DNA of 61,733 nt from Pseudomonadota bacterium (GTDB lineage: Bacteria; Pseudomonadota; Gammaproteobacteria; Steroidobacterales; Steroidobacteraceae), in NCBI GenBank assembly GCA_021790795.1, contig JAJYFU010000003.1, positions 1 to 61,733 on the forward strand, in the 5' to 3' direction. The translations under genes and the position numbers were made by a program. Position 1 is the stretch's first letter, and the number at the start of each line of letters is the position of its first letter. Positions 4,941 to 36,475 of the stretch are shown here, in pieces. The notes beneath the pieces are model-generated. The model had not been told where the DNA came from. It made no database searches and saw nothing but the letters and a program-made list of their open reading frames with translations.

Positions 4941-5054
4941 TCACACTCGAAATGGCTTGTTCGCCTTCTTTTCCCGCTTCGCCGCTCGCTTCTCCAACAA
5001 TGTCTTGGCCGGCTTCTTCTTGTTGTCCTTCTTTCTGTCCATTCCCTTGCTCAT
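4941..5054 (-). CDS. Lysine-rich small protein, 37 aa
   Basis: A very basic 37-residue protein: it begins MSKGMDRKK, continues KKKPAKTLLEKRAAKREKK and ends PFRV. Small proteins of this look are common as unnamed hypotheticals in proteobacteria, and binding to nucleic acid or ribosomes is only a guess. Evidence for reality: a strong GGAGGAG sits 6 nt before the ATG, and the ATG overlaps the stop of the upstream gene by 4 nt (ATGA), so it is placed for coupled translation. The composition is Lys-rich in a GC-rich genome, which chance frames would not give. It was found by direct reading, being shorter than normal ORF cut-offs. Confidence 0.7.
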   Translation of the reverse strand: MSKGMDRKKDNKKKPAKTLLEKRAAKREKKANKPFRV

Positions 5055-5593
5055 GTGCCACTCCTCCAGTCCGAGGTAAAGAGGCGCAGCGAGTTCAATT
5101 TCGCCGGTCCCGAACCGTGTTTGTCAGGAACGATGGTCAGGCGAAGGTGGCTGATCGGGGGCAGATTCAAGCGCTGCACTTCGCGCTGAAAACTCGCGCC
5201 CGCAGGGCTGAAGGTGTACTCCTGGACGAGCGTCTGGCGGTAGGTCCGGCCCCCGTCCGAGGATACCTCGACGCTCACTTCCTGCGTCCTCGCACACGCG
5301 CAGTCCTCCACCTCGTAGATCATCCAAGAGACACTCTGCGGTTGGTCGAACTCCACGATGATACGTTCCATGGTATTTGACTTGGCGCCAGCCCAGAACG
5401 TGCTGTCGCGCCCGTAATGCCCATCGATCACGTTGTCAATCGGGTGGTCAGGATCTTCCGACGTGTAGGCAAGGACCGCGTGGTTCGCAATATCAATCTC
5501 GCCGGCGAAAGCGGCGGGATTCTCGCTCTCCTTCGACAGCAGCCGCTTTCGCACACCCGATGAGCTCGAGGGAGAATCAGTGTTTGACTGCAT
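5051..5593 (-). CDS. Discoidin (F5/8 type C)-like domain protein
   Basis: A 180-residue protein. Residues 40-170 match the galactose-binding-like beta-sandwich in pattern: a DNVIDGHYGRDSTFW segment (the Asp-Gly ... Ser-Thr-Phe-Trp signature), IIVEFDQPQSVSWMIYEVED for the strand carrying bound ligand contacts, VEVSSDGGRTYR, and a closing LRLTIVPDKHG. No signal peptide is visible, so it may be cytoplasmic or exported another way. A GGAGG lies 9 nt before the ATG at 5593. Its last codons carry the Shine-Dalgarno of the downstream 37-residue gene, so the two form a pair. The ligand is unknown. Confidence 0.7.
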   Translation of the reverse strand: MQSNTDSPSSSSGVRKRLLSKESENPAAFAGEIDIANHAVLAYTSEDPDHPIDNVIDGHYGRDSTFWAGAKSNTMERIIVEFDQPQSVSWMIYEVEDCACARTQEVSVEVSSDGGRTYRQTLVQEYTFSPAGASFQREVQRLNLPPISHLRLTIVPDKHGSGPAKLNSLRLFTSDWRSGT

Positions 5594-6695: not shown

Positions 6696-7170
6696 GCGGG
6701 ATATTGCGATAAGCGCGGCCCACGCCGCACGGGGCGACAAACAACAGTATGATCATGGCGCCGGAAAGGCCATAATCAATTTATACAGCACGGAGTACAA
6801 CCCCGAAATTCACCGGAAAGCACGAGCTCTCGCTACCGGCACTTTTGACACCAAACTCAAGAAAACGCCAACAGCGTGACGCAGTCGCGCATTCGGCCGC
6901 ACTGTGTCACGAGCCGCCCACGTCCACGGCGCAGCCGCCGGCAATTCTTACATAATAGACACAGTCTTTCCTCCCTCTGCGCCCAGTACGCTGTTTTGTC
7001 GCGAAATTCTTGCGTTGGCATAATTGTTGCTTATGCACGTTCGCGCAACTGCTTCGAAGACTAATGTGACAGGGCGGGATTTCAGGTCGCGTCGTAGGTG
7101 GCATGGATCGCCGTCTACCAGAACAACCGAGTTGAAAACAGACCACATGATTCTGACAGCGGAGAAACCA
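6696..7170. other. 475 nt upstream region of the PEP-CTERM-like gene
   Basis: Holds the sigma-54 promoter at 7016-7031. Further upstream, CTGTGTC (6902-6908) and GACACAG (6958-6964) are a perfect 7-bp inverted pair 49 nt apart, which might be activator half-sites or chance. No ORF is convincing. Confidence 0.45.
7016..7031 (+). promoter_or_regulatory. Sigma-54 (-24/-12) promoter
   Basis: TGGCATAATTGTTGCT, preceded by T, fits the RpoN consensus TGGCAC-N5-TTGCW with GG and GC exactly ten bases apart. Predicted start near 7042, leaving a leader of about 129 nt before the ATG at 7171. Confidence 0.65.
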
Positions 7171-7929
7171 ATGAAAAGAACATCTGTGGCAATCTCGATG
7201 GCATTCGTGTCAGCGGCGGCCCTTCTGGCCGGTACGTCACCCGGGATGGCCGGAACGATTACCGGAAGCCAGTGGAACACCTCGGCCGTCATCTATGGGG
7301 GCGACACCTCCAGCGTAAACGGTAGTAACCCTGGCAAAAATGGCGATTCCTACATCGCCGCCTATTCCAGCTCCTATGGCGGGTCGGCCGAGCTGGCGGT
7401 GATTAACGATGCGCCAGGTGTGACCGATGCGTACGCGGGGACCCAAGGAAACTTCGGACTATTGTCGAATGTCAGCATGTCTTTCGACACTGCAAATTAC
7501 AGCGGGGTCAGCGGTGGCGAACCCTATGCGGTGCTCACCATATTCGATGGGAGTGGCGACTACTTTGACCTCGTCAGCGCAGACAGTTCGAGATCCGCGG
7601 GCGACGGTATAAACGCATCGACCAACGTTGGCGTCTGGGACTTTCAGACCAATAATTGGTTCAACGGCATCACTTCCTACAGCACCCCGGTGCCATTGGG
7701 AAGCCTTTTCGCTACAAATGATGGCAACGGCGTTACGTTCGGGCAGACGCAAGCCATCGTTGCGTGGGCCGACATGGGGCAGTGGGGCGCGACTGGCGCG
7801 AGCGGTACCGCCTACGTCAACGAAATGCAGGTTTCCGCGTCAGAGCCACCGACTTTCCCACTCTTCGGCGTCGGCTTTGCCCTCCTGGTGGCGGGGGTCG
7901 TGAGATCAAGGAGGCGCGGGACCGCCTAA
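7171..7929 (+). CDS. Secreted PEP-CTERM-like surface protein
   Basis: A 250-residue exported protein. A Sec signal peptide (MKRTSVAISMAFVSAAALLAG, likely cleaved after an Ala-Gly-type site near residue 27) is followed by a Ser/Gly/Asn/Thr-rich beta-type domain. The C-terminus is a short EPP motif, a single hydrophobic helix (FPLFGVGFALLVAGVV) and a basic end (RSRRR), the tripartite layout of exosortase-sorted PEP-CTERM proteins, although the canonical V-P-E-P is altered. The start is fixed by GGAGAAACC before the ATG at 7171 and by the upstream sigma-54 promoter. PEP-CTERM genes in other bacteria are known to be under PrsK/PrsR and RpoN; no prs genes or exosortase lie in this window. Confidence 0.75.
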   Translation: MKRTSVAISMAFVSAAALLAGTSPGMAGTITGSQWNTSAVIYGGDTSSVNGSNPGKNGDSYIAAYSSSYGGSAELAVINDAPGVTDAYAGTQGNFGLLSNVSMSFDTANYSGVSGGEPYAVLTIFDGSGDYFDLVSADSSRSAGDGINASTNVGVWDFQTNNWFNGITSYSTPVPLGSLFATNDGNGVTFGQTQAIVAWADMGQWGATGASGTAYVNEMQVSASEPPTFPLFGVGFALLVAGVVRSRRRGTA

Positions 7930-9190: not shown

Positions 9191-9204
9191 TCCCAAGTGT
9201 GGGA
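9191..9204. promoter_or_regulatory. Palindromic activator site 1
   Basis: TCCCAAGTGTGGGA: perfect 5-bp arms TCCCA/TGGGA around 4 bases. Its centre is 30 bp from the identical-architecture site at 9221 and about 138 bp upstream of the predicted sigma-54 start. Inferred to bind the NtrC-type regulator encoded at 16427. Confidence 0.55.
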
Positions 9205-9220
9205 CGCAGGCGGAACTGAA

Positions 9221-9234
9221 TCCCGCATATGGGA
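9221..9234. promoter_or_regulatory. Palindromic activator site 2
   Basis: TCCCGCATATGGGA, sharing TCCC-N6-GGGA with site 1; the inner bases extend to ATCCC/GGGAT. It lies three helical turns downstream of site 1, on the same DNA face, about 108 bp before the predicted transcription start. Confidence 0.55.
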
Positions 9235-9309
9235 TCCGCCGATCCGCGGCAGCATTCGTCAGGTTTCCAAAAGCCCTTTAATCTCAGATCACTACATGAC
9301 TGCCCGTTT

Positions 9310-9325
9310 TGGCACGGAATCTGCT
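9310..9325 (+). promoter_or_regulatory. Sigma-54 (-24/-12) promoter of the export operon
   Basis: TGGCACGGAATCTGCT matches TGGCACG-N4-TTGCW with one difference, with GG-N10-GC spacing. Predicted start near 9336, 25 nt before the ATG at 9361. The two upstream palindromes sit at typical enhancer distance. Confidence 0.7.
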
Positions 9326-9360
9326 CAGCGCTGGTATGCGATCAAATCGTGATCCCCGCC

Positions 9361-10629
9361 ATGCCGGACATAGCGATTAATCCGACCGTCATCCGCAGAA
9401 AGCGCATGAAGCGCCGCGCCGTGGGAGGCGCTGTCGCGGCCGCTCTCATCGCTCTGGTCATCTGGGCGGCGGGCCGCACGGGCGCCGGACCCAGCGTGCG
9501 GCGTTCGGACGTTTGGATTGCCACGGTAAAACACGGTCCGCTTCCCATTGAGGTCAGCGCAGCCGGCGTGTTCACCCCGATCGAGCAGCGCTGGATCACA
9601 GCGGCCACACCAGGGGTGGTGGAGGACGTTCGGGTGCAACCTGGCGATGAAGTCAAACCCAGTACGGTGCTCGCGGTGCTCGCCAACCCGACCGTTGCAT
9701 CCGCGCTCGCGCAAGCCAGAGCCAACGTCGCCAGTGCCGAAGCCAATAAGGCCTCTCTGCACGCACAGCTAATCAGCCAGTTGCTGACGCTGCAGGGCGA
9801 CCTCGCCACCACGCAGGCGCAGGCCGAGATCGCAGCGGTGAAGGAGCGGGCAGATCGCTCGCTGCTCGATGCGCATATCCTTTCGATGCTCGAATACACC
9901 TCCACCCGCCTGCGAGCGCACGAATACGCCCAGCTCGTCCGCTTCGCCAAGGAACGAATCGCCGCCTTCCGCCAAAGCATGGCGGCCCAGGATCGCGCCG
10001 CCGTTGCGCGGTTGGCGGCATTGCGCGCGGTGCTCGGGAATGATCGGCAGCGACTCGCCGCGCTCTCTGTCACCGCAGGGCTGGACGGAGTGGTCGAGGA
10101 TGTCGCCGTGCACGCCGGCCAGACACTCGCCGTCGGTGGCGGGATCGCACGCGTGGCCAGCTTGAAGTCGCTCAAGGCTACCTTGCAAGTGCCGGCCAGC
10201 GAGGCCGAAGAAGTGACCGTCGGTCAGTCGGTCTCCCTGACATTGGCCACCGAGACCACCCAGGACCTGACGGGACGGGTTTCCCGAGTCTCCCCGTCGG
10301 TGAGCAACGGCAGCGTGGAGGTCGACGTCATGCCCAAGGAGACACTGCCGAACGATGTCCGCCCCAACTTGGCGGTCACCGGCGAGATTCACGTTGCCGA
10401 CATCCACGAGGCGATATACGTCCAGCGTCCCGCTTACGCCACTCCCGACAGTACCATGACGCTGTTCCGACTCATCGATGGCGGGCAGGCGGCCGTTCCC
10501 GTCCGGGTGCGATTCGGGGCTGCCTCGGACCAATACATTCAGATTGCCAGCGGGCTCAAAGCCGGAGCCCAAGTTATCGTGTCCGAGTCCAGTGGCTTCG
10601 CCGGCGATCGGCGACTGACTTTGAGATGA
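9361..10629 (+). CDS. Periplasmic adaptor (HlyD/MacA family) of an ABC exporter
   Basis: A 422-residue membrane-fusion protein. An N-terminal anchor (AVAAALIALVIWAAG, residues about 22-36) is followed by a biotinyl-lipoyl half (TPGVVEDVRVQPGDEV), a helical hairpin of about 130 residues rich in Ala/Gln/Lys, the second lipoyl half (GLDGVVEDVAVHAGQTLAVGG), and beta-barrel and membrane-proximal parts. It would link the inner-membrane ABC permeases to an outer-membrane channel, which is not encoded here. ATG 9361 is chosen because longer upstream starts would precede the predicted transcript start; GTG 9349 is possible. First gene of a six-gene unit. Confidence 0.85.
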   Translation: MPDIAINPTVIRRKRMKRRAVGGAVAAALIALVIWAAGRTGAGPSVRRSDVWIATVKHGPLPIEVSAAGVFTPIEQRWITAATPGVVEDVRVQPGDEVKPSTVLAVLANPTVASALAQARANVASAEANKASLHAQLISQLLTLQGDLATTQAQAEIAAVKERADRSLLDAHILSMLEYTSTRLRAHEYAQLVRFAKERIAAFRQSMAAQDRAAVARLAALRAVLGNDRQRLAALSVTAGLDGVVEDVAVHAGQTLAVGGGIARVASLKSLKATLQVPASEAEEVTVGQSVSLTLATETTQDLTGRVSRVSPSVSNGSVEVDVMPKETLPNDVRPNLAVTGEIHVADIHEAIYVQRPAYATPDSTMTLFRLIDGGQAAVPVRVRFGAASDQYIQIASGLKAGAQVIVSESSGFAGDRRLTLR

Positions 10630-10651: not shown

Positions 10652-11371
10652 ATGAGCGCCACCGCTGTGATCAACGTCGCTGACCTCACCAAAGTCTATG
10701 TGACCGACGAAGTGGAGACGCATGCGCTGACCGGCGTCACTCTGCGGGTGGACGCCGGCGAGTACGTGGCAATCATGGGTCCCTCGGGCTGCGGGAAGAC
10801 GACGCTCATGTCCATCCTGGGCCTCCTCGATGCCCCGAGCGCCGGAACGTACGATTTGGCCGGCACGCCCGTCGCGAAGCTCGATGCGCGACACCGAGCG
10901 CATTTCCGCAATCGCAATATCGGATTTGTGTTCCAGTCCTTCAACCTCATCGGCGACCTCAACGTCTACGAGAACGTGGAGCTGCCCCTGGTTTATCGCG
11001 GAGGCTTGGCGCGCACGGAACGGCGCCGCAAGGTCGCCGAGGCCCTGGAGAGCGTCGGGATGTCGCACCGCATGCGTCACTATCCGGCGCAGCTTTCCGG
11101 AGGCCAGCAGCAGCGTGTCGCCATCGCGCGTGCGCTTGTCGGGGACCCGGCGATCCTGCTGGCCGACGAGCCGACCGGGAATCTCGACTCCGCCAATGGC
11201 GAGAAGGTCATGGACCTGCTGGCCGAACTCAACGCCCGGGGAGCCACCCTCGTGATGGTGACCCACGATGCACGCTATGCCGCTCACGCCAAGCGCCTGG
11301 TGCGCCTGTTCGACGGGCAGATCGTCGCGGAGCAGGAGAGTCGCAGGCGCGAGACAACTGCCCTGAGATAG
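10652..11371 (+). CDS. ABC exporter ATP-binding protein (MacB/LolD type)
   Basis: A 239-residue ATPase of the MacB/LolD branch. Walker A GPSGCGKTT lies near residue 44, the Q-loop in FVFQSFNLI, signature LSGGQQQRVAIARAL near 150, Walker B ILLADEPTGNLDS near 167, and the H-loop in VTHDARYA. It should power the two FtsX-like permeases that follow. The gene starts 22 nt after the adaptor and ends 27 nt before the first permease, consistent with one transcript from the sigma-54 promoter. Confidence 0.92.
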   Translation: MSATAVINVADLTKVYVTDEVETHALTGVTLRVDAGEYVAIMGPSGCGKTTLMSILGLLDAPSAGTYDLAGTPVAKLDARHRAHFRNRNIGFVFQSFNLIGDLNVYENVELPLVYRGGLARTERRRKVAEALESVGMSHRMRHYPAQLSGGQQQRVAIARALVGDPAILLADEPTGNLDSANGEKVMDLLAELNARGATLVMVTHDARYAAHAKRLVRLFDGQIVAEQESRRRETTALR

Positions 11372-11398: not shown

Positions 11399-13867
11399 AT
11401 GAGCAACAGCTGGCAAACGCTGGTCGATCTTCCGCTGTCCGGCATTCAACACGCGGTGCGGCGACTACGGCTCGAATGGCGATTCACCCTGGCCTTTGTG
11501 ATCACGCTTGCGCTGGGAATCGCCGCCAACGCCACCGTTTTCTCGGCGTTGGACGCTTATGTGTTGCATCCCTTGCCGTACCCGCACAGTGGCCGTTTGC
11601 TCGACGTCTATTTCACGCTCCACAAAGGCGGCGCCGCCGATGGATTTACGTCGGTGCCCGCCTACGAGCAGTTCCGGCGGCTCCCGGCGATTACCGATGC
11701 AGGCTTGTTCCGGGGGTACGGCACTCTCGCCACAGTGATCACCGGAAGCACATCCGCTGAAACTCTGAGAGTGGCGCACGTGACCGCTTCCGCGTTCCAG
11801 ACCCTCGACGTTCGTCCACTTCTGGGACGCTGGTTTACCAACGGCGCGGATCGCCCCCAGGGACCACGCGAGGCCGTCCTGAGCTACGGACTCTGGAATA
11901 GTGACTTTGGCGGAACTCGCCACGTGCTTGGGCGGTCGCTGCGCGTCAACGGCAAGCTGTTCACGATCATCGGCGTCATGCCACGGGACTTTGCGTTTCC
12001 CGCGCGGGATACCGCGCTGTGGCTCCCCTTTGTCGTCCCGCGCGCGGACTTCAATCCGGATCGCCTGACCAACTGGAACGCGGTGATGATTGCCCGGCCC
12101 AGACCGGGAGTCTCGCGCGCCACGCTGCAAACGCAGCTCAATCTCGCCGTCAGTCGCCTCGAGGAGAAAGTCGACGCCACTTTGCGTGTGCTGCTGCTAG
12201 GCAACGGCGGTGTCTTTGCAGGAGCCATGACGTGGCAGAGGTTCGTGGCCGGCAGCGCCGTCAGGCATCTCGTGATCATGCAGCTCGGGGCCGGGATCCT
12301 GCTCCTGCTTGCCGTCGCGAGCCTGGTCAATCTCGCCATCGTCCGCGCGCTCCGCCGCCGCCAGGCGCTCGCCATACATGTCGTGCTTGGGGCTTGGCGC
12401 ACGCAACTGTTGCTGACGGCGCTCTTCGAGGCGTTGCCCATTGCCGCGCTTGCCACCCTCCTCGCCTGGCCGCTCGGACGCCTTGGCAGCCAGGCTCTTA
12501 CCTGGTTCGGCGTTGCGTCCGAGAGGACCGCATTCCACTTGGTGCAAGGCACCTCGCTGTGGTTGATCGCGTTCGCCGTCGCCCTCCTGCTCAGCATTCT
12601 GGTCCTGGCCACGCCCCAGACGCTCATGCGCTTCGGCCAGCCCGGCCAGTTTCTCCAGGGCGGAATTCGGGAAACCGACGGGGGCCGCACCACGCGTTAC
12701 CTGCGCCAGGGACTCAGCGTGACGCAGATCGCCCTCGCAGTCCTGCTGCTCGCGTCAGCCTCGCTGCTTGGCCTGTCCGTGCGCCAGATGCTGCGCCCAC
12801 AGCGCGGCTTGCGCAGTGATCACCTTGCGGTCGCGAGTTTGCTCCTGCACGGAGCGGCGTATCGGCGGCCCGAAGGCTACTCCGCTGTGGAAGACGAGCT
12901 CGGAAGCGCCACGGAGAAGATTCCCGGCGTGACCGCTGTTGGAATCGGCGAAGGAGCGCCGTTCGCCTCGACCTCGGGAACCGCGTTCAGGCGTCCGAGC
13001 AAGCATCGCTGGCACATGGCGTCCATCACACTCGCCGGTCCAGGTTTCCTGCGGACTCTCGGAGTTCGTCTTCTAAGGGGGCGACTCATCAGGGACGCAG
13101 ACATTTCCTCCAACGCGCCCGTCGTTGTTGTCGACCGTCGTTATGCGCACGCGGTGTTTGGCACTTCCAACGTCATCGGCCGTATCATTGACTCCAATGG
13201 CGTTCACTGGCGGATCATTGGCGTCGTGGAGACCATCCCCGATCAGTTCGCCGCATTCTATGCCTCCACCCAGGGCACCGTATTTCTCCCGGAGGCTCCT
13301 GTGGCATTGGACATCTGGGCTGGGGACACTGAAACGACGATCCTGATCCGCTCGAGGCGCCCGGCCTTTCAGCTCAGGCATGAATTCCTCGTGGTGATGC
13401 ACCGGCTGTTGCCGGACCAGTCGCTCTTCGAGTTTTCGTCCATGAACCGGCTCATTGCCGCGTCCGCGAAGGGCGCCTCGGCGGTTGCGAGCCTCGTCAT
13501 CGCCTCAGGTCTGCTCGCGTTCGTGCTCGCTGTTGTCGGCACCTACGGCGTCGTCGCTTACGTGGCTGGCATTCGCCGCCAGGAGTTTGCGATTCGCCAG
13601 GCTCTCGGCGCGACGGCCCAGCAAATTCAGGGGATCATCATGAATCAGGGCTTCCGCCTTTGGGGACTCGGCGTAGCCTTGGGTGTCTGCACGACTATCG
13701 TCCTCGCGCCCTTCCTGCAAGCCCAGCTTTACCAAGTCAGCGTTCACAACGCCGGCGCCTATCTCGCGCCCCCGATTGCTCTGGGATGCGTCGTGGCTGT
13801 GGCGTCCTGGCTCGCGGTCCGCCAGCAGTGGAAGGTTGGCCTGAACGAGCTCCTGCAGCCGGATTAG
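11399..13867 (+). CDS. FtsX/MacB-type ABC permease 1, duplicated form
   Basis: An 822-residue permease built as two MacB-like halves. A first membrane helix near residue 30 (FTLAFVITLALGIAANATVFSAL) leads into a large periplasmic MacB-PCD domain. Three FtsX helices follow (around 300-410), then another helix near 440, a second periplasmic domain and a final three-helix FtsX block with the conserved RRQEFAIRQALGAT loop near 730. This duplicated layout is the so-called ADOP type, about twice the length of MacB permeases without the ATPase. It likely pairs with the next gene product as a heterodimer. Substrate unknown. Confidence 0.88.
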   Translation: MSNSWQTLVDLPLSGIQHAVRRLRLEWRFTLAFVITLALGIAANATVFSALDAYVLHPLPYPHSGRLLDVYFTLHKGGAADGFTSVPAYEQFRRLPAITDAGLFRGYGTLATVITGSTSAETLRVAHVTASAFQTLDVRPLLGRWFTNGADRPQGPREAVLSYGLWNSDFGGTRHVLGRSLRVNGKLFTIIGVMPRDFAFPARDTALWLPFVVPRADFNPDRLTNWNAVMIARPRPGVSRATLQTQLNLAVSRLEEKVDATLRVLLLGNGGVFAGAMTWQRFVAGSAVRHLVIMQLGAGILLLLAVASLVNLAIVRALRRRQALAIHVVLGAWRTQLLLTALFEALPIAALATLLAWPLGRLGSQALTWFGVASERTAFHLVQGTSLWLIAFAVALLLSILVLATPQTLMRFGQPGQFLQGGIRETDGGRTTRYLRQGLSVTQIALAVLLLASASLLGLSVRQMLRPQRGLRSDHLAVASLLLHGAAYRRPEGYSAVEDELGSATEKIPGVTAVGIGEGAPFASTSGTAFRRPSKHRWHMASITLAGPGFLRTLGVRLLRGRLIRDADISSNAPVVVVDRRYAHAVFGTSNVIGRIIDSNGVHWRIIGVVETIPDQFAAFYASTQGTVFLPEAPVALDIWAGDTETTILIRSRRPAFQLRHEFLVVMHRLLPDQSLFEFSSMNRLIAASAKGASAVASLVIASGLLAFVLAVVGTYGVVAYVAGIRRQEFAIRQALGATAQQIQGIIMNQGFRLWGLGVALGVCTTIVLAPFLQAQLYQVSVHNAGAYLAPPIALGCVVAVASWLAVRQQWKVGLNELLQPD

Positions 13868-13923
13868 CCTGGTCCGCAAGGTTCCCATCGCTTCATGCAT
13901 ACTCGTTTCACAAGGCGGTAGAC

Positions 13924-16404
13924 ATGCACCGCGTCTTTCACAAGCCCGCCGCGTGGCTCCGCTCATTCCGCAAGCCGGGCTTCGCCCTGGCCGTGATCCT
14001 GGTCCTTGCGCTCGGCATCGGCGCGAATACCGCCACGCTGAATCTCCTGTACGGCTACCTTCTGGCTCCGCTGCCGTATCCGCACGCCGGTCGTCTCGTG
14101 AACGTCTACTTCACGAGCAAGACCATCCCCGGCAATCTCCAGATGTCGTATCCCACCTACTTCAAGCTGCGCGCCCAAACGGCCGGCATGCGCGATGCCG
14201 GCATGTACAAGCTCAAGAACCTCAACCTCGAATCCGGCGCCAGCGTGGGGCACGTCCGGGGCGCGGCGATCTCCGCTTCCCTGTTCACCGCGCTGGGTGT
14301 GGCACCGATGCTGGGGCGCGTGTTCGGGAGACGAGCGAACCAGCCGGGAGCGGCGCCCGAAGTCGTATTGAGCACGCGGCTCTGGTCGCGGCTGTTCAAC
14401 CGCAATCCCAATGCGCCTGGACGGACCATTCGTCTCAATGGAGTGGTCTACACGGTGGTCGGCGTCATGCCGAGCAGTTTCCAGTTCCCGGACGCGCAGA
14501 CGGCACTCTGGGTGCCCAAGGACATCGCACCCTTCGATCATCTGTCGGTCAACATGACCGCCTGGCACGACATCATGATCGCGCGCCTCGCTCCCGGCGT
14601 GACCCCGGGTCAATTGGCGATCCAGTCCCAGGCGGCATTGGACCGGGAGATCGCGCAATTTCCCGTCCCTTCCGCCATTTCGCTGATCAGGTCCTGGGGT
14701 CTTAAGATATCGGTCAAGCCCTTGCGCGCCGCTCTCCTGGGAAACCTCGACGAGCGGTTGGTCCTTGCGCAGCTCGCGACCGGACTGCTCCTGCTGCTGG
14801 TCTGGCTCAATCTGGCGAACCTGTTCATCGCCCGCGCGCTTGCGCGGCGCGGCGAGCTCATCGTGCGGCGAGTGATCGGCGCCGACACGCAGATCTTGTT
14901 CCGTCAGCTGTTCGCGGAGAGCCTGACGCTGTCTCTGGCAGGAAGCGTTGCCGGGCTCCTCTTAGGCGAATTGCTGCTTCGAGTGCTGCTGCACACGGGG
15001 TTCGCAAGCACGACCCTCACGTTCCCGATGCGCGACTGGGCCATCGCCGCCGCTACCGCCTTGGCGCTCGCTGTGCTGTCTGCGCTCGTGTTCTCGCTCG
15101 CCGGTCTGCACTTCATCCGCCGCCAGGATCTCTCGCAAGCCCTTCGGGATGCCGACGCGCGCAGCACCGGCGGTCGCGCAGAGCACCGCCTGCGCGGGGC
15201 GCTGGTCGCGATCCAGCTCGCTCTCGCGTTTACGTTGAGCGGCGTCGGCATGATGCTGGTTCACAGCCTGATCGAGCTCGACGCGGTGCGGCTCGGATTC
15301 CAGCCGGCGCACGTCATCACCTTCCAGATGCATGTCCCTCCGGGTAGCGGACCTCTCTCGGCATGGACGGCTGACCTGCGCGTACAGCTGGCGAGATTAC
15401 GTGCTGCCCTGGCGCGACTCCCGGGCGTGGAAACGGCGACGATCGCGAGCGATGTTCCCTTCGATGGCCAGAGCATGGGCAATGGCGCCTATCCGAATCC
15501 GTATGACGGGAAGCACAGGCCGACTCTCTTTACCATCGTCACCGATCCCGGTTATTTCCGGACCCTGGATGTCCATCTGCTCTCAGGACGTCTGTTCACG
15601 GCGCAGGATGCGGCCTCGAAAGCGGGCGATGCGGTGATTGACGCACGATCCGCGCGCGAGTTGTTCGGGACGACAAACGTCGTGGGGCGCAGGTTCAACT
15701 TCGACGCACCGAACGACTCTCAACCGAACTTGCTGTTTCGGATCATCGGCGTCGTCGCAGACGCCCGACAGGCGCACCTTGGCTCGGGCCAGCCTGTCGG
15801 GGTCGTCTACATAGACCGCGAGCAGGTTCTACAAGTGACGCACGCGATGTGGTCATGGGCCACCTCCACGTGGTATGTGGCGGTTCGCACGCCGCTCAGT
15901 ACGGCCGCGATTCTCCCGGCATTGAGCAAATCCGTGCGTGCGGTACTGCCGGGCGTGCCGATCTACGGAGTACGCACCATGAATCAGCGGCTCTCGAGGC
16001 GGCTCGCGCCCCGGCGAGCCGTGGCGGTGCTGGTGCTGCTGTTTGCGCTGGGGGCGTTGTCGGTCGCGGCGGTCGGCTTGTACTCGGTGCAGAGCTACCT
16101 GGTCGGCCAGAGGCGGCCTGAGTTCGGCATCCGGGCCGCCCTCGGCGCGGATCCGGCCCGACTGCGCGGACTGGTGCTGCGTGAAGGCGGGTGGCTCCTG
16201 CTGCTCGGGTCTGTCCTCGGTGTTTGCGGGGTCGCAGTGCTCGGGCGGGTGTTCTCGGCGTCCTTCTACGGTGTGCCGGCCGCCGATCCGCTGTCACTGC
16301 TGCTGGTCATGACGGCCCTCGGTCTCATCACGCTGCTCGCGGGCTGGCTTCCGGCCCTGCGCGCCAGCCGGGTTCCGCCCATGGAAGCGCTACGGGATAG
16401 GTGA
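13924..16404 (+). CDS. FtsX/MacB-type ABC permease 2, duplicated form
   Basis: An 826-residue paralogue of the preceding permease with the same two-half plan: opening helix FALAVILVLALGIGANTATLN, periplasmic domain, FtsX block with RRGELIVRRVIGADTQIL, second periplasmic domain, and last FtsX block with RRPEFGIRAALGADPARL. The frame is open back to 13660 within the previous gene, but the ATG at 13924 puts the first helix at the same distance from the N-terminus as in permease 1. The two differ widely in sequence, so they are old duplicates rather than a recent copy. Confidence 0.88.
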   Translation: MHRVFHKPAAWLRSFRKPGFALAVILVLALGIGANTATLNLLYGYLLAPLPYPHAGRLVNVYFTSKTIPGNLQMSYPTYFKLRAQTAGMRDAGMYKLKNLNLESGASVGHVRGAAISASLFTALGVAPMLGRVFGRRANQPGAAPEVVLSTRLWSRLFNRNPNAPGRTIRLNGVVYTVVGVMPSSFQFPDAQTALWVPKDIAPFDHLSVNMTAWHDIMIARLAPGVTPGQLAIQSQAALDREIAQFPVPSAISLIRSWGLKISVKPLRAALLGNLDERLVLAQLATGLLLLLVWLNLANLFIARALARRGELIVRRVIGADTQILFRQLFAESLTLSLAGSVAGLLLGELLLRVLLHTGFASTTLTFPMRDWAIAAATALALAVLSALVFSLAGLHFIRRQDLSQALRDADARSTGGRAEHRLRGALVAIQLALAFTLSGVGMMLVHSLIELDAVRLGFQPAHVITFQMHVPPGSGPLSAWTADLRVQLARLRAALARLPGVETATIASDVPFDGQSMGNGAYPNPYDGKHRPTLFTIVTDPGYFRTLDVHLLSGRLFTAQDAASKAGDAVIDARSARELFGTTNVVGRRFNFDAPNDSQPNLLFRIIGVVADARQAHLGSGQPVGVVYIDREQVLQVTHAMWSWATSTWYVAVRTPLSTAAILPALSKSVRAVLPGVPIYGVRTMNQRLSRRLAPRRAVAVLVLLFALGALSVAAVGLYSVQSYLVGQRRPEFGIRAALGADPARLRGLVLREGGWLLLLGSVLGVCGVAVLGRVFSASFYGVPAADPLSLLLVMTALGLITLLAGWLPALRASRVPPMEALRDR

Positions 16405-16426: not shown

Positions 16427-17773
16427 ATGGCGAAGCCGATGATCCTGGTCGCGGACGATGACGCCGACGTGCGCCAAGCCCTCTCGCTGCTGCTTCGCGA
16501 TGCTGGCTGCGAGGTCGCAACGGCGGCGAGCCCGGCGGAAGCGCTCGCCTCGCTGCGCCAGAGGCGTCCCGAGCTGGTGCTGCTCGACCTGAACTACCGG
16601 CGCGACACCACGTCAGGCGACGAGGGTCTGGCGCTGCTTAAACAGATTCGCGCGCAGGACGGCGAGCTGCCCGTCGTGGTCCTCACGGGCTGGGGCACGG
16701 TCCAGCTTGCGGTCCAAGCCATGCAGTTGGGCGCACAGGACTTCCTGGAAAAACCCTGGGAGAACGCCCGGGTGCGATCCCTCGTGAACATTCACCTGGC
16801 GCTGGCGGATACCCGCAACCGGATGCGCAGATTCGAGGAAGCCGCACAGTCCGGCGAAACACAAGACGACGAGCCGGTCTTCCACGCCCGCGGCATGCGC
16901 GAAGCCCTGGACGTCGCCCGGCGCGTCGCGGCCTCCGACGTGCCGGTGCTGCTCACGGGCGAAAGCGGCACCGGCAAGACCCTAATGGCACGCTGGATTC
17001 ACCGGCACTCGCCGCGTCGGGAAGGCACATTCGTCAGCGTCAATCTCGGCGGACTGGCGGAGACGCTGTTCGAAAGCGAACTGTTCGGTCACGTCAAAGG
17101 CGCATTCACCGATGCCCGTAGCGACCGGATCGGACGAATCGAGCGCGCCCGCGGCGGTACGCTCTTTCTCGACGAGATCGCCAATATCACCCCGTCTCAG
17201 CAGGCGCGGCTGCTGCATGTCCTGGAGGAAGGGATGTTCGAGCGTGTCGGCGAGACCCAAACGCGATCGACCGATGCGCGCATCGTGGCCGCAACCAATG
17301 CCGACATCACGCAACTGATCCGCGAGGGACGTTTCCGCGAGGATTTGCTCTTTCGGCTGAATGCCGTCGAGATCGCTCTGCCGCCGCTGCGGGCGAGGCG
17401 GGACGATATCGCGCTGCTCGCGCGCCATTTCCTTGCGCGTTTCGCACCCCCTGATACCGCGCCGTTAGCCCTCAGCGCTGGCGCGGACCGCGCACTGGAA
17501 GGCTATGACTGGCCCGGCAACGTGCGCGAACTCGCGCATGTCATGCAGCGGGCGGCATTGCTGGCCACCGGAGAACGGATCGAGGCCGCAGATCTGCGCC
17601 TCCTGAGCGCAGAGAGCGCCGAGCGTCTCGATACCCTAACACTGGAGCAAGCGGAGCGCTACGTGATCCGGCGGGCACTCGAAAGTTGCCGCGGGGACGT
17701 CGAAGCGGCGGCCGCGAAACTCGGCGTAAGCCGCAGCGCGTTGTACCGGCGCCTCGAGAAGCTGCGCGAATGA
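16427..17773 (+). CDS. Sigma-54-dependent response regulator (NtrC family) with GAFTDA loop
   Basis: A 448-residue activator. Receiver domain residues 5-120 with acidic pocket DDD (10-12) and phospho-acceptor Asp about 54 in LVLLDLNYR. AAA+ domain with Walker A GESGTGKT near 178-185 and Walker B GGTLFLDEIAN near 245. A C-terminal Fis-type helix-turn-helix (LGVSRSALYRRLEKLRE) ends the protein. The sigma-54 contact loop reads GAFTDA rather than GAFTGA (about 225-230). It is followed by its kinase with an ATGA overlap. The -24/-12 promoter and paired palindromes at 9191-9325 argue that it works with sigma-54 and controls its own operon. Confidence 0.92.
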   Translation: MAKPMILVADDDADVRQALSLLLRDAGCEVATAASPAEALASLRQRRPELVLLDLNYRRDTTSGDEGLALLKQIRAQDGELPVVVLTGWGTVQLAVQAMQLGAQDFLEKPWENARVRSLVNIHLALADTRNRMRRFEEAAQSGETQDDEPVFHARGMREALDVARRVAASDVPVLLTGESGTGKTLMARWIHRHSPRREGTFVSVNLGGLAETLFESELFGHVKGAFTDARSDRIGRIERARGGTLFLDEIANITPSQQARLLHVLEEGMFERVGETQTRSTDARIVAATNADITQLIREGRFREDLLFRLNAVEIALPPLRARRDDIALLARHFLARFAPPDTAPLALSAGADRALEGYDWPGNVRELAHVMQRAALLATGERIEAADLRLLSAESAERLDTLTLEQAERYVIRRALESCRGDVEAAAAKLGVSRSALYRRLEKLRE

Positions 17774-19068
17774 GGCTCGGCGGCCCCGGACGCTGGAGCG
17801 GCGCGGGTCTGGCTGCGGTGGCGGTGCTGCCGATGCTGGCACAGGCGGCACTGCTCGCCGCCGGTGTCCAGATGCCAACGGCCGCGCGTTGGCTGGGGTT
17901 CACATTGGCGGCCCTCTGGCTGGGAGCGGGACTCGCGCTGGCCGCCCGAGCCCGCGCGCGCCGGCTGCGGCTGCTGGCGAGCTTGTTGCACGGCCTTCGC
18001 GAAGGGGACTACGGCTCGAGAGTACGCGCCGGCACCGGTCCGATCGGGGAGTTGGGACAGGCATTCAACGCCCTGGCGGCGCATCTGGGTGGCGAGCAAC
18101 GGCATGGACTGGAAACCGATGCGCTGCTGTCGCAATTGCTCGCGAGTCTGGAGCTGGCTGTGCTGATCGTGGACGAGTACGGTCGACTGGTCGAGGTCAA
18201 CCCCGCCGCCGAAGCGCTTTTGGGAGAGACGGCGTCGGCGCTCGTCGGGCGCTCTGCGACGCAAATCGGCTTATCCGACTGGCTGCGCCGCGGGACACCA
18301 TTCATCGATAGCCGTGATCTCCCGGCTGGTGAGGGCCCATGGGAAGTGCGCCGAGTCATGTTCCGTCGCCACGGACGCCCTCACCGCCTGCTGGTCGCCA
18401 CCGACGTGAGCCGTGCGCTGCGGGAAGAGGAGCGCAGCGCCTGGCGGCGCCTGATCCGGGTGCTGGGACACGAAATCAATAATTCGCTCGGCTCCATCCA
18501 GTCCACCGCCAGCCTGCTGGGCGAACGCGCCCCGCAGAGCGATCCGACACTCAAAGAAGGTCTGGAATTGATTGAGCGGCGCAGCCGAACGCTCGGCGGC
18601 TTCATCCGCCGCTACGCGGAGCTCGCCCGCCTCCCGCCGCCCACTCCCGAAGTCGTCGAGCTGGCCGGACTGATCCGGCACATCGCCTATTTGGAAGAAC
18701 GAGTCGCCGTCGCCGTCGAATCCGACACAGCCGCGACCGTGTATGTGGACAGGACGCAATTCGAGCAAGCGCTGATCAACTTGGTGCGTAACGCCGCGGA
18801 TGCGGCCCTCGAGACCGGCGGCGGCGTGCGCATCCGCTGGCATGAGGACGGCCGATACCTGCTGATCGAGGTGGAAGACGATGGACCGGGCGTCGTGCAC
18901 ACCGAAAACCTGTTCGTTCCCTTTTTCACGACCAAGGCCGGCGGCAGCGGAATCGGTCTGGTGCTGGCGCGGCAGATCATCGAGGCACACGGCGGCAGCT
19001 TGCGTCTCACAAACCGTCAGACCTCACCCGGCGCACGTGCCGTCATACGATTGGTGATGCGGGAATAA
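17770..19068 (+). CDS. Membrane sensor histidine kinase (NtrY-like)
   Basis: A 432-residue kinase. Two N-terminal membrane helices (about residues 12-30 and 38-58) are separated by only a few residues, so there is almost no periplasmic sensor. A HAMP-like segment (70-115), a PAS-like domain (LLASLELAVLIVDEYGRLVEVNPAAEALLG) and HisKA with LGHEINNSLGS follow, His about 234. HATPase boxes: N-box VRNAADAA, G1 VEDDGPGV, G2 GGSGIGLVLARQI. Start ATG at 17770 overlaps the regulator stop by 4 nt. The signal is probably read in the membrane or cytoplasm, perhaps from the transporter itself. Confidence 0.9.
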   Translation: MRLGGPGRWSGAGLAAVAVLPMLAQAALLAAGVQMPTAARWLGFTLAALWLGAGLALAARARARRLRLLASLLHGLREGDYGSRVRAGTGPIGELGQAFNALAAHLGGEQRHGLETDALLSQLLASLELAVLIVDEYGRLVEVNPAAEALLGETASALVGRSATQIGLSDWLRRGTPFIDSRDLPAGEGPWEVRRVMFRRHGRPHRLLVATDVSRALREEERSAWRRLIRVLGHEINNSLGSIQSTASLLGERAPQSDPTLKEGLELIERRSRTLGGFIRRYAELARLPPPTPEVVELAGLIRHIAYLEERVAVAVESDTAATVYVDRTQFEQALINLVRNAADAALETGGGVRIRWHEDGRYLLIEVEDDGPGVVHTENLFVPFFTTKAGGSGIGLVLARQIIEAHGGSLRLTNRQTSPGARAVIRLVMRE

Positions 19069-19160: not shown

Positions 19161-19832
19161 TTATGGAAGCAACCAAATGGCGCCGATGGACATCAGATCG
19201 GGATTCGCGCCGGCTGCGTTGAACCGCTCATACTCCCCCCGAAACGCCCAATTTCCGAGCGTCCGCTGCAGGCCGATACCTGTCGCGAATCCGGTGGTTG
19301 TACTGTTGCGCGCGATGCTGAGGTAACGGCAAGGGGCGAATGCGCAATTGTCGACCCCGAAGTACTCGTAGTCAGCGGAGCGGTTGGTCGTGATCCGGGA
19401 CAAGCCCGCTTTCAGATAGACGGTCACCACGGGCACCGGAAGATAGAGGACTGCGAAGGCTCCCTCGCCCTTCTGCGACGCCTGACCGTTCTTGACGAGC
19501 ACGCCCGCCTGCGGTGACGGCCATGACCGCTGCCCGAAGTCCATGTAGGTGACTTCGGCGCCCAGGAACGAGACCGGCCGCACGCCCAGCATGATCTGAT
19601 ATGCGGAATGAGCGAAATCCGATCCGCCCAGCTGTACGGTGCCACCGACGCCAGTCGGCGCACTGATCGGGGCGGCCCTGACGTGCGCCTGGCCGTAAGC
19701 TGCGCCTATGTAGAGGCCGAGTGGACCCGCGGCACGCGCGCTTGCAGGGACGCAGAATGAGGCGACGGAGGATACGCCTACAGCGAAGATGACATGACGG
19801 ATCCGTTCATAGGCCCGGGACCGGTTGATCAT
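19161..19832 (-). CDS. Outer-membrane beta-barrel protein (porin/OmpW-like size)
   Basis: A 223-residue exported protein with a signal peptide (HVIFAVGVSSVASFCVPASARA, cleavage near residue 35) and an alternating beta-strand body: LGLYIGAAYGQAHV, YQIMLGVRPVSFLGAEVTYMDFG, VTVYLKAGLSRI, FATGIGLQRTLGNWAFRGEYERF, ending SIGAIWLLP. This is the pattern of an eight-stranded barrel of the OmpA/porin superfamily, without the usual terminal Phe. Two Cys residues (DNCAFAPCRY) might form a loop disulphide. GGGAGAG precedes the ATG at 19832. It converges with the sensor kinase gene, 92 nt apart. Confidence 0.75.
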   Translation of the reverse strand: MINRSRAYERIRHVIFAVGVSSVASFCVPASARAAGPLGLYIGAAYGQAHVRAAPISAPTGVGGTVQLGGSDFAHSAYQIMLGVRPVSFLGAEVTYMDFGQRSWPSPQAGVLVKNGQASQKGEGAFAVLYLPVPVVTVYLKAGLSRITTNRSADYEYFGVDNCAFAPCRYLSIARNSTTTGFATGIGLQRTLGNWAFRGEYERFNAAGANPDLMSIGAIWLLP

Positions 19833-20048: not shown

Positions 20049-21122
20049 TCAGCTCAAAGTCGGGTAGTCCGTGTACCCGGCGGCTCCGGCCGAATAGAAT
20101 GTCGTCATATCGGGCGCATTTAACGTCGCGTCTCGGCGCATGCGCTCGACCAGATCGGGATTTGCCAGCATCGCGCGCCCGAAGGCGATCAGATCGGCGT
20201 CACCCGCTTGCAGGGCAGCCTCGGCCGTGCGGGCATCGAAGCCCCCGGCGAGGATGAATGGACCGTCAAACGCCGCGCGCAGCGCACGCTTGAACTCCGC
20301 CGGCACGGCAGGCGCACCCATCGCCGAGTGGTCGAGCACATGCACGTAGAGCAGGCTCATCTTCGAAAGCTCACGCACGAGTCCGAGATACTGCGCTTCG
20401 ACGCCGTCGAAGCCGCCCGTGCCGTTGAACACCCCATAGGGCGACAGCCGCACACCGACACGATCCGGGCCGATCAGGTCAGACGCGGCACGGATCACTT
20501 CCAAGGCAAAGCGATTGCGCGCCGTCGCGCTGCCACCCCAGTCATCGCCGCGGGTGTTGACATTCGCATTGAGAAATTGCTCGATTAGATAACCGTTCGC
20601 CGCATGCATCTCGACACCGTCGAATCCCGCCTCGACGGCCAACCGAGCAGATTCAGCGTATTCGCCGATCGCGCGTGCAATGTCCGATGCGTCCATCGCC
20701 CTGGGCGTGGAGTACGGCCGCACCCCGCAGCTATCCGTATGCACCTCTCCGGGCAGAGCGGCGCCGGTCGCTCCAAGGACTTCCGCGCCGTCGGGCAGGT
20801 TGGCCTGCTGCGTGACTCGACCCGTGTGCATCAGTTGCAGCACGATGCACCCGCCACGCGCGTGCACCGCCTCGGTAACCCGCCGCCAGCCGGCGGCCTG
20901 AGCCGCATTGAACATGCCTGGAATACGCGCATACCCGAGCCCATTCGGCGACGGAGAGGTTCCCTCGGTGATGATCAGTCCGGCTCCGGCGCGCTGCGCA
21001 TAGTACTGCGCCATCAACGCGTTCGGGGCATTCCCGTCGACCGCGCGATTACGGGTCATCGGCGCCATGACGACACGATTACGCAAGCGCAGCGCTCTAA
21101 GGGAAACAGGCTCAAACAGCAT
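20049..21122 (-). CDS. Old yellow enzyme family ene-reductase
   Basis: A 357-residue FMN-dependent alkene reductase of the NemA/OYE class. The TIM barrel starts LFEPVSLRALRLRNRVVMAPMTRNRA; the Gln-Leu-x-His motif LQLMHTGR supplies FMN/substrate contacts; FDGVEMHAANGYLIEQFLN, NRFALEVI and GVRLSPYG follow, with the phosphate-binding FILAGGFDA and FGRAMLANPDL near the end. The catalytic pair is HAAN (His-x-x-Asn), as in enzymes reducing maleimides, enones or nitro-compounds with NAD(P)H. AAAGGA precedes the ATG. A promoter with a palindrome in its spacer lies 92 nt upstream, but no regulator gene is adjacent. Confidence 0.93.
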   Translation of the reverse strand: MLFEPVSLRALRLRNRVVMAPMTRNRAVDGNAPNALMAQYYAQRAGAGLIITEGTSPSPNGLGYARIPGMFNAAQAAGWRRVTEAVHARGGCIVLQLMHTGRVTQQANLPDGAEVLGATGAALPGEVHTDSCGVRPYSTPRAMDASDIARAIGEYAESARLAVEAGFDGVEMHAANGYLIEQFLNANVNTRGDDWGGSATARNRFALEVIRAASDLIGPDRVGVRLSPYGVFNGTGGFDGVEAQYLGLVRELSKMSLLYVHVLDHSAMGAPAVPAEFKRALRAAFDGPFILAGGFDARTAEAALQAGDADLIAFGRAMLANPDLVERMRRDATLNAPDMTTFYSAGAAGYTDYPTLS

Positions 21123-35161: not shown

Positions 35162-36475
35162 TTAGTTTCCGGCGCCCCCTCCCTGGACGCTGTAGCCGCG
35201 CGCGTGCAGGCAGGCGATCATTGCCCGCTGGTAGCCGGCGCGCATGTGCGCCGAGGCGTTGGAATCCTGCGCCGACCGCATCGGGTTGAAGCCACTTTGC
35301 GCCACGGCCCACTTGTGGCATGCGTACTGATCGTTCGCAGTCTGCTGCCGCGACTGCCCTTTTTTCGGCGTCACCCGCAGACCGAGCACGCCGCTTCCGC
35401 CGCCCGCGGTATACGTCTGGGTCGATGCCTGCGGCCCCGTGCCGCTACTCGAGACCGGCGGGGGATCGGTCACCACGTAGCCCTGGTAATACGGGCTCCA
35501 TGTGTAGTACACCCGATTGACGTAGTAGTACGGTACGCCGCTGAAGCTCAGCATGACGGCCCCAGTCGGAATGCTCCCCAGATACCAAGGATAGTTCCAG
35601 TTGTAATTGACCGGCGGCCAGTACATGCCACCCCAGTCGCCGCCCACCCAGAGCGCCCCATTCCAACCGAAGCCGGGACCGCCCCAGCCCCAGCCCGGAG
35701 CTTCCCATCCGTCTCGCCAGCCGTCGCCCTGCCAGCCGCCACCCTGCCAGCCGCCACCCTGCCAGCCGCCACCCTGCCAGCCGCCACCCTGCCAGCCGCC
35801 ACCCTGCCAGCCCCCGTGCCAGTTCCGCCGCGGGTCGCCATGCCACCCGCCCATGCGGGCGGCCGGGAAGTGACCGTCGCGAAACTGGCCACCGCGAAAC
35901 GGCCGGCCGTGAAACTGACCGCCGTGAAACTGACCGCCGTGAAACTGACCGCCGTGAAACTGACCGCCGTGAAACTGACCGCCGTGAAACGGCCTGCCGC
36001 CAAAGTGACCGCCCCCGAAGTGCGGCCCCGCGAAATGCCCGCCGCCGTGAAAGTGACCGCCCCCGAAGTGCGGCGCGGCGAAGTGGCCGCCGCCGTGAAA
36101 GTGACCGCCCCCGAAGTGCGGCGCGGCGAAGTGGCCGCCGCCGTGAAAGTGGCCACCCCCGAAGTGCGGCGCGGCGAAGTGGCCGCCGCCGTGAAAGTGG
36201 CCACCCCCGAAGTGCGGCGCGGCGAAGTGGCCGCCGCCTTGAAAGTGGCCACCCCCAAAGTGCGGCGCGGCGAAATGCCCGCCACCACCCCGGCGCACGG
36301 CAGCATGCGACGGAACCGCGGCGACGGTCATTGCCACCGCCAGGGCAAGGAGAGAACACGAGATCGCGACCGCGCGCCGCAGCGCGCCTCGCTCGCGTCG
36401 ATGCAACAATACGTCGTCGGGGTCGCCCGCGACCAGGGGAACACAACGCAATTCAGCCGGGTTGGTTCTAGACAT
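35162..36475 (-). CDS. Exported His/Gly/Trp-rich repeat protein
   Basis: A 437-residue protein with a signal peptide (AVAISCSLLALAVAMTVAAVPSHA, residues 35-58). Residues 64-159 are six copies of a 16-residue unit (GGGHFAAPHFGGGHFH), 165-189 five copies of GGQFH, and 225-249 five copies of GGGWQ. The rest is a Tyr/Trp/Pro-rich beta segment (VPYYYVNRVYYTWSP) like DUF6515 proteins, and a C-terminal helical domain with two Cys (DQYACHKWAVAQSGF, MIACLHARGY) seen at the end of several glycine-zipper envelope proteins. More than 30 His residues suggest binding of Zn, Ni or Cu in the periplasm or cell wall. GGGGGAG precedes the ATG at 36475; the longer upstream frame lacks this site. Confidence 0.85.
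   Translation of the reverse strand: MSRTNPAELRCVPLVAGDPDDVLLHRRERGALRRAVAISCSLLALAVAMTVAAVPSHAAVRRGGGGHFAAPHFGGGHFQGGGHFAAPHFGGGHFHGGGHFAAPHFGGGHFHGGGHFAAPHFGGGHFHGGGHFAAPHFGGGHFHGGGHFAGPHFGGGHFGGRPFHGGQFHGGQFHGGQFHGGQFHGGQFHGRPFRGGQFRDGHFPAARMGGWHGDPRRNWHGGWQGGGWQGGGWQGGGWQGGGWQGGGWQGDGWRDGWEAPGWGWGGPGFGWNGALWVGGDWGGMYWPPVNYNWNYPWYLGSIPTGAVMLSFSGVPYYYVNRVYYTWSPYYQGYVVTDPPPVSSSGTGPQASTQTYTAGGGSGVLGLRVTPKKGQSRQQTANDQYACHKWAVAQSGFNPMRSAQDSNASAHMRAGYQRAMIACLHARGYSVQGGGAGN
35729..35818 (-). repeat. 15-bp tandem repeat coding GGGWQ
   Basis: Six near-identical 15-bp units inside the His/Gly-rich gene, five of them coding GGGWQ and the first HGGWQ. Confidence 0.9.
35909..35983 (-). repeat. 15-bp tandem repeat coding GGQFH
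   Basis: Five copies of a 15-bp unit in the same gene. Confidence 0.92.
35999..36286 (-). repeat. 48-bp tandem repeat coding a 16-residue His-rich unit
   Basis: Six copies of 48 bp with few substitutions, in frame with the gene. Units 2-5 are identical at protein level; the first ends in Gln and the last has AGPHF and ends in Gly, so the edges have diverged, as expected for unequal-crossover arrays. Confidence 0.93.

Follow-up and report, generated by a model that had tools for sequence, protein, structure and literature searches.

What controls an ABC exporter operon that carries its own two-component system? The question is raised by a stretch of 61,733 nucleotides from a Steroidobacteraceae contig (JAJYFU010000003.1; the window hereafter), in which two inverted repeats and a candidate sigma-54 promoter precede genes for an exporter, an NtrC-type response regulator and a histidine kinase (Table 1). 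An earlier note on this DNA had suggested that the regulator binds the repeats and so governs its own operon. We compared the locus with its relatives at several distances, and the comparison points the same way: with a probability of roughly 0.86, the palindromes serve the operon-encoded regulator as its operator (enhancer) pair, through which it would activate the exporter operon, and thereby its own gene, via sigma-54.

Table 1. Positions of the predicted control elements and genes of the exporter operon in the window
Feature	Position	Strand	Remarks
Palindromic operator/enhancer site 1 (distal), TCCCAAGTGTGGGA	9191..9204	.	predicted; kept in orthologues
Palindromic operator/enhancer site 2, TCCCGCATATGGGA	9221..9234	.	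predicted; 30 bp from site 1; kept in orthologues
Sigma-54 -24/-12 promoter, TGGCACGGAATCTGCT	9310..9325	+	predicted start ~9336; exact consensus; similar placing in orthologues
Periplasmic adaptor, RND_mfp/HlyD-type	9361..10629	+	ATG and next codons align among orthologues
ABC ATPase, MacB/LolD/DarD type	10652..11371	+	family match
Permease 1, MacB_PCD/FtsX, ADOP-like	11399..13867	+	TIGR03434 492.6 bits, below the cut-off of 622.3
Permease 2, MacB_PCD/FtsX, ADOP family	13924..16404	+	TIGR03434 628.2 bits, above the cut-off of 622.3
NtrC-type response regulator	16427..17773	+	receiver, sigma-54 AAA+ with GAFTDA loop, Fis-type HTH ending SRSALYRRLEKLRE
Histidine kinase	17770..19068	+	start overlaps regulator stop (ATGA); two TM helices, PAS, HisKA, HATPase

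The exporter operon and its variants

Domain matches confirmed the gene order proposed before: adaptor, ATPase, two ADOP-type permeases, NtrC-type response regulator and kinase. By the NCBIfam cut-off for TIGR03434, permease 2 belongs to the ADOP family and permease 1 falls under the threshold; the score of permease 2 was computed on a longer ORF (13660–16404), and its start at 13924 is our choice. In the window the gap between the adaptor and ATPase genes is just 22 bp and holds no TolC-like gene. The two relatives inspected on this point have a TolC-like outer membrane efflux gene (PF02321) at that place (L065: 2022–3539; L068: 6404–7876, complement), which fits a tripartite pump.

Further variation lies around the permeases. 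A third ADOP-like permease stands between permease 2 and the regulator in G223 (L063: 7046–9475), and in G030 the same interval is a 1.8-kb gap with no assigned gene (L033: 6987–8755). Permease 1 is missing in G012 (L061) and reduced to a fragment in L062. As for the limits of the unit, a beta-barrel gene (19161–19832) and a flavin oxidoreductase (20049–21122) downstream and two upstream ORFs (7024–7929 and 4952–5380) had no match at 14 orthologue loci, which have limited flanks and include several overlapping copies of one place; being unmatched there, all four probably lie outside the unit.

Predicted control elements in the window

The -24/-12 promoter that the earlier note had placed ahead of the adaptor gene is borne out. 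The consensus TGGCACG-N4-YTGCW, with its GG and GC kept, has its sole exact match in the window at 9310–9325, leaving 35 nt to the adaptor ATG (9361); 0.05 such matches were expected, and 5 of 100 shuffles had one. Once two mismatches are allowed, promoters of this kind occur in the window at chance level (26 observed versus 25.6 expected), so the case for this one rests on its exactness, its position and its conservation. The rpoN gene was found in all five genomes in which it was sought. The promoter search also brought up, as repeated weak matches, tandem 15-bp units at 35719–35821 of the window, TGGCAGGGTGGCGGC-like on the minus strand.

Both upstream sites are 14-bp palindromes of the form TCCC-N6-GGGA, and their coordinates bear out the geometry first described, with centres 30 bp apart, the distal one about 138 bp and the proximal one about 108 bp ahead of the predicted start. 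Taken as a pair at this spacing they match without mismatch at 9191–9234, and the one other match in the window at up to three mismatches has three. Throughout the window's own assembly (2.81 Mb, 95% complete) the pair with at most one mismatch has this single place; at two mismatches one further place appears, probably a chance match.

A lone TCCC-N6-GGGA is not rare, since the window contains 3 where 1.3 are expected, and this frequency is what an origin of the inverted repeats by chance, as another kind of repeat or as RNA structures could draw on. Such an origin is nevertheless extremely improbable: the pair stands upstream of the predicted start, it is conserved against a diverged background, and control matches numbered 0 in 58 and 0 in 396 genomes.

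We also searched for IHF sites between enhancer and promoter in seven regions. In G012 one matches without mismatch; the best candidates in five relatives have 2 mismatches, and that in the window has 3.

Conservation in the closest orthologues

Eleven upstream regions represent the nearest relatives (regulators 72–84% identical where found): the window, G012, G030, G147, G029, G223, G360 (L062, the same DNA), L064, L065 and two of G008. Conservation among orthologues had been proposed in advance as a check of both elements, and both passed it. The pair is kept with at most one mismatch in its 16 defining bases in 11/11 upstream regions, 9 of them distinct; a single mismatch, leaving one site degenerate, occurs in G012, L062, L064 and L065. 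The -24/-12 element, scored with a slightly looser consensus (Y at position 6, R at position 8), has no mismatch in 9/11, one in G147 and two, a weak match, in L065.

The geometry is conserved as well. When spacings from 20 to 44 bp were searched freely, 30 bp was chosen in each of the 11 regions, and among 200 dinucleotide shuffles per upstream, made for nine of them, an equally good pair arose in none for eight upstreams and in one for L065. With the near-duplicates G223 and L065 dropped (n = 9), the 16 site columns carry a mean of 1.91 bits versus 0.73 in other columns. From the start of site 2 to the start of the -24 element the distance is 89 bp in 7/11 upstreams and 90, 91, 92 and 101 bp (the last in G012) in the rest, and the end of the -12 element lies 33–38 nt from the ATG.

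Co-occurrence of the pair with the regulator gene

In a sample of the order, 5 of 396 genomes have the exact pair, all of them from the window's genus, and the control had no matches. A sample of the class (369 genomes) gave the window pair and one in another genome, G536; the latter (locus L140) was rejected as a chance match, none of the six operon proteins being matched there.

Within the genus, 7 of 58 genomes have the regulator (E ≤ 1e-140; 8 copies) and 9 have the pair with at most one mismatch (10 places; no control matches). All seven genomes with the regulator carry the pair, and their eight pair places precede an orthologous adaptor gene. The hypergeometric value for this co-occurrence, 1.2e-7, is indicative only, as the counts come from related genomes and not from independent events. 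Duplication goes together too: G008 has two regulators and two pairs, each pair upstream of an adaptor gene, on four different short contigs, so that which pair belongs to which regulator is not visible.

It might be supposed that another transcription factor binds the palindromes and controls the operon, the encoded regulator working elsewhere. What speaks for this is that the binding of the regulator to the sites is read from sequence comparison, that pairs and regulators of G008 stand on different contigs, and that two of the nine pair-bearing genomes, G029 and G355, carry the pair without an intact regulator gene. The last two cases, however, have simple explanations. The operon of G029 is cut by the contig end after permease 1, and that of G355 is a relic (L145, in the C176 region of G355, complement, about 1200–1545), in which a deletion has joined the start of the adaptor gene to what is left of the regulator gene, its 3' part; the pair survives there with 1 mismatch, as does a -24/-12-like sequence. 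A global factor is made unlikely by the pair having no other place, at up to one mismatch, in the 58 genus genomes. The sites moreover track the regulator through the rearrangement described below, and in more distant operons palindromes of another sequence stand at roughly this position. Control by another factor is thus improbable, and the encoded regulator remains the preferred ligand of the pair.

A search with up to two mismatches in seven genomes gave one extra place each in five of them (G000, G012, G030, G147 and G223), those of G000, G012 and G223 being similar in sequence. In the control, G012 and G008 gave one match apiece (on each strand). We take the extra places as chance and set aside the wider regulon that they would imply.

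A divergent layout in the sister group

Eight contigs of metagenome-assembled genomes (L068–L075) hold regulators 56–60% identical to that of the window. In 7/8 the adaptor gene, with more exporter genes where the contig shows them, is divergent from the regulator and kinase genes; the contig of L071 has no exporter gene. A transposase-like ORF (932–1924, complement; IS3-type by eye) adjoins the pair and the regulator in L071, at the place expected for the exporter.

The sites persist in the intergenic region at a spacing of 31 bp. Exact pairs are found in L071 and L073; there is one mismatch, with one site degenerate, in L068 and L075, and two in L069, L070, L072 and L074. The free spacing search gave 31 bp in 5/7 and a tie at 36 bp for L069 and L070, and 0 to 2 of 200 shuffles each were as good. 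The site near the exporter lies 89–93 bp from the exporter -24 element in 5/7; for L069 and L070 the computed distance of 124 bp refers to the other site, which by subtraction gives 93 bp for the 31-bp pair. The exporter -24/-12 element itself has no mismatch in L068, one in L075 and two in 5/7.

What distinguishes this group is an extended -10 element (TGnTAnAnT) that faces the regulator gene between the two sites in 8/8 contigs and begins exactly 20 bp past the start of the regulator-distal site in every one, although L069 and L070 are nearly identical and the flanking pair of L068 is degenerate (3 mismatches). No such element, in either direction, is present in the 9 of the 11 closest orthologue upstreams searched for it. 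The placement suggests, from sequence, that the regulator of the sister group may also occlude its own promoter.

Should the regulator then be seen mainly as a repressor on the pair, with no sigma-54 activation and a -24/-12 element of no importance? The sister group gives this some footing, as its sites flank the extended -10 in a repressor-like manner and its exporter -24/-12 elements are weaker. Against it, the -24/-12 element of the closest orthologues is kept at a nearly fixed distance and the protein retains a sigma-54 AAA+ domain. The intergenic region of L068 also tells against it. Two pairs lie there in one divergent region (9284–9450): pair 1 has its near site 93 bp, an enhancer distance, from a consensus exporter -24/-12, and pair 2, the degenerate one, surrounds the extended -10 of the regulator promoter. 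This separation looks as if both roles were selected and suggests two functions, an exporter enhancer and an operator on the regulator's own promoter. Repression as the main role is therefore highly improbable, and activation through sigma-54 remains the preferred reading for the exporter. The sister branch can be regarded as a natural experiment, with two promoters apparently served by a single pair of enhancers.

Different palindromes in cousin operons

More distant regulators (44–47% identical), which we call cousins, differ in the recognition helix. All 20 regulators from the closest orthologues and the sister group end in SRSA[L/F]YRR; the 16 aligned cousins comprise 13 of SRQA type and 3 of TRASL type. 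Upstream regions were used where a -24/-12 element was found in the available sequence (8/13 and 2/3, respectively), and the promoters of L050 and L051 carry two mismatches. A TCCC-N6-GGGA within 200 bp occurs in 0/10 of these cousin upstreams. Operons with SRQALYRR have instead, in 7/8, GTCCG-N4-7-CGGAC starting 82–94 bp before the -24 element, L051 being the one of this type with no GTCCG/CGGAC palindrome; the TRASLYRR operons L038 and L039 have neither type of palindrome. No adaptor match was seen for L038, L039, L043 and L048. The exporter operons with GTCCG/CGGAC (L041, L043–L046, L048 and L050) also have TGTCCG half-sites nearby.

The cousin branch suggests how operator and recognition helix changed together. 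As judged from these sequences, the two differ together over few independent changes, and we regard a recognition code as a lead rather than a result.

Regulator, kinase and the proposed circuit

The regulator matches PF00072, PF00158 and PF02954 (HTH_8), as an NtrC-type, receiver-bearing sigma-54 activator does. The phosphorylation-site residues D10, D54, T87 and K109 are kept in 36/36 aligned regulators, and the window protein has both Walker A and Walker B motifs. Its GAFTGA loop reads GAFTDA, like that of 19/20 regulators from the closest orthologues and the sister group (the window included); G223 has WAFTDA. The available text of PMC4641369 lists GAFTDA as a variant that keeps activity and does not list WAFTDA.

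By hydropathy the two helices of the window kinase are only a few residues apart, leaving almost no periplasmic loop. By this method, which is crude and used mechanically picked start codons, 18 of 23 family kinases have two helices close together; in 2 the helices merge into one stretch, 2 have a single helix, and the window kinase's own paralogue (L036) has none. A two-TM kinase with no extracytoplasmic sensor domain is a mark of Bce-type modules, and the window kinase, by hydropathy, is of this kind. The output regulator of a Bce module is of OmpR/BceR type, and the operon is not classed as one because its own is NtrC-type. Since the kinase has no visible periplasmic sensor region, it is conceivable, as a guess, that its signal is cytoplasmic (through PAS) or comes from the permeases by analogy with Bce modules, as these are described in the available part of PMC6978683.

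The circuit that we propose would run as follows. The kinase would phosphorylate the regulator, which would then, in a phosphorylation-dependent manner, occupy the two sites, which face the same side of the helix (30–31 bp, three turns), and form an AAA+ ring. The ring would loop to sigma-54 RNA polymerase waiting at 9310–9325 and open the promoter, so that the exporter proteins (adaptor, ATPase and two permeases) would be made along with more regulator and kinase. The ABC exporter would in this way be under local positive feedback. Because the sites of the sister group keep the enhancer distance and also flank the extended -10, the bound regulator would there activate the exporter and block its own sigma-70-type promoter.

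A broader reading is that these operons make up a family of sigma-54 modules that are self-contained and coupled to their transporter: the kinase, lacking a periplasmic sensor, would be gated by the exporter's permeases, and the recognition helix would have been recoded between subfamilies, with enhancer geometry near-fixed and a dual-role pair in one branch. We consider it tentative and rather unlikely in this full form. If it were true, the correspondence of SRSA with TCCCG/CGGGA versus SRQA with GTCCG/CGGAC would amount to a naturally evolved code for the specificity of Fis-type HTHs, and in one branch a single pair would activate the exporter and repress the regulator.

Comparison with known systems

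The principle of sigma-54 enhancers is classical, as NtrC, ZraR and PspF illustrate, and it is the assignment of regulator to operator that looks new here. We found no published report of the operator, the regulator assignment or the sister-group layout among titles and the beginnings of abstracts, mostly of non-subscription literature. A 2025 survey (PMC12316311) predicted sigma-54 promoters for COG0577 FtsX-like ABC permeases and termed this 'first evidence'; the present operon is like that set, which includes Gammaproteobacteria, in having a sigma-54 promoter before FtsX-like ABC permease genes. The survey, in its available text, gives promoters and enrichment and does not name enhancer sites, a dedicated two-component system, a regulator assignment or an operon logic. 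The view of the earlier note that such a unit is little described is thus roughly right. ABC exporters of this class were only recently predicted to be under sigma-54 control; our analysis gives them an operator and, probably, a regulator of their own, and its support is comparative, regulator and sites being present, duplicated, decayed and rearranged together.

In layout the operon resembles NtrC/glnAp2 and ZraSR/zraP: a sigma-54 AAA+ response regulator with Fis-type HTH, upstream palindromes in helical phase, a -24/-12 promoter and a regulator encoded in or beside its target operon. It differs from them in an operator of the TCCCG-N4-CGGGA type, in its target, an ADOP/MacB-type ABC exporter, and in a kinase with no visible periplasmic sensor domain. 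The sister group recalls E. coli pspF-pspA, since enhancers of a divergent target overlap the regulator's sigma-70-type promoter there as well. The E. coli system shows negative autoregulation, and PspF has neither a receiver nor a kinase; here, in contrast, a two-component system would control an exporter.

BceS and BceB resemble the arrangement of transporter and two-TM kinase seen here. As in BceRS-BceAB, an ABC transporter stands beside a two-TM kinase with almost no periplasmic loop, whereas the NtrC-type sigma-54 activator as output, the PAS domain of the kinase and the presence of an adaptor set our operon apart; BceRS-BceAB is a flux-sensing module (PMC6978683, available part), and a contact of transporter and kinase in our operon is conjectural. 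With MacAB-TolC the exporter shares an adaptor, a MacB-like ATPase and MacB_PCD/FtsX permeases, to which the operons of L065 and L068 add a TolC-like gene. Unlike MacAB-TolC, it has ATPase and permease as separate proteins, with two permeases, and in the window no outer membrane factor is encoded between adaptor and ATPase.
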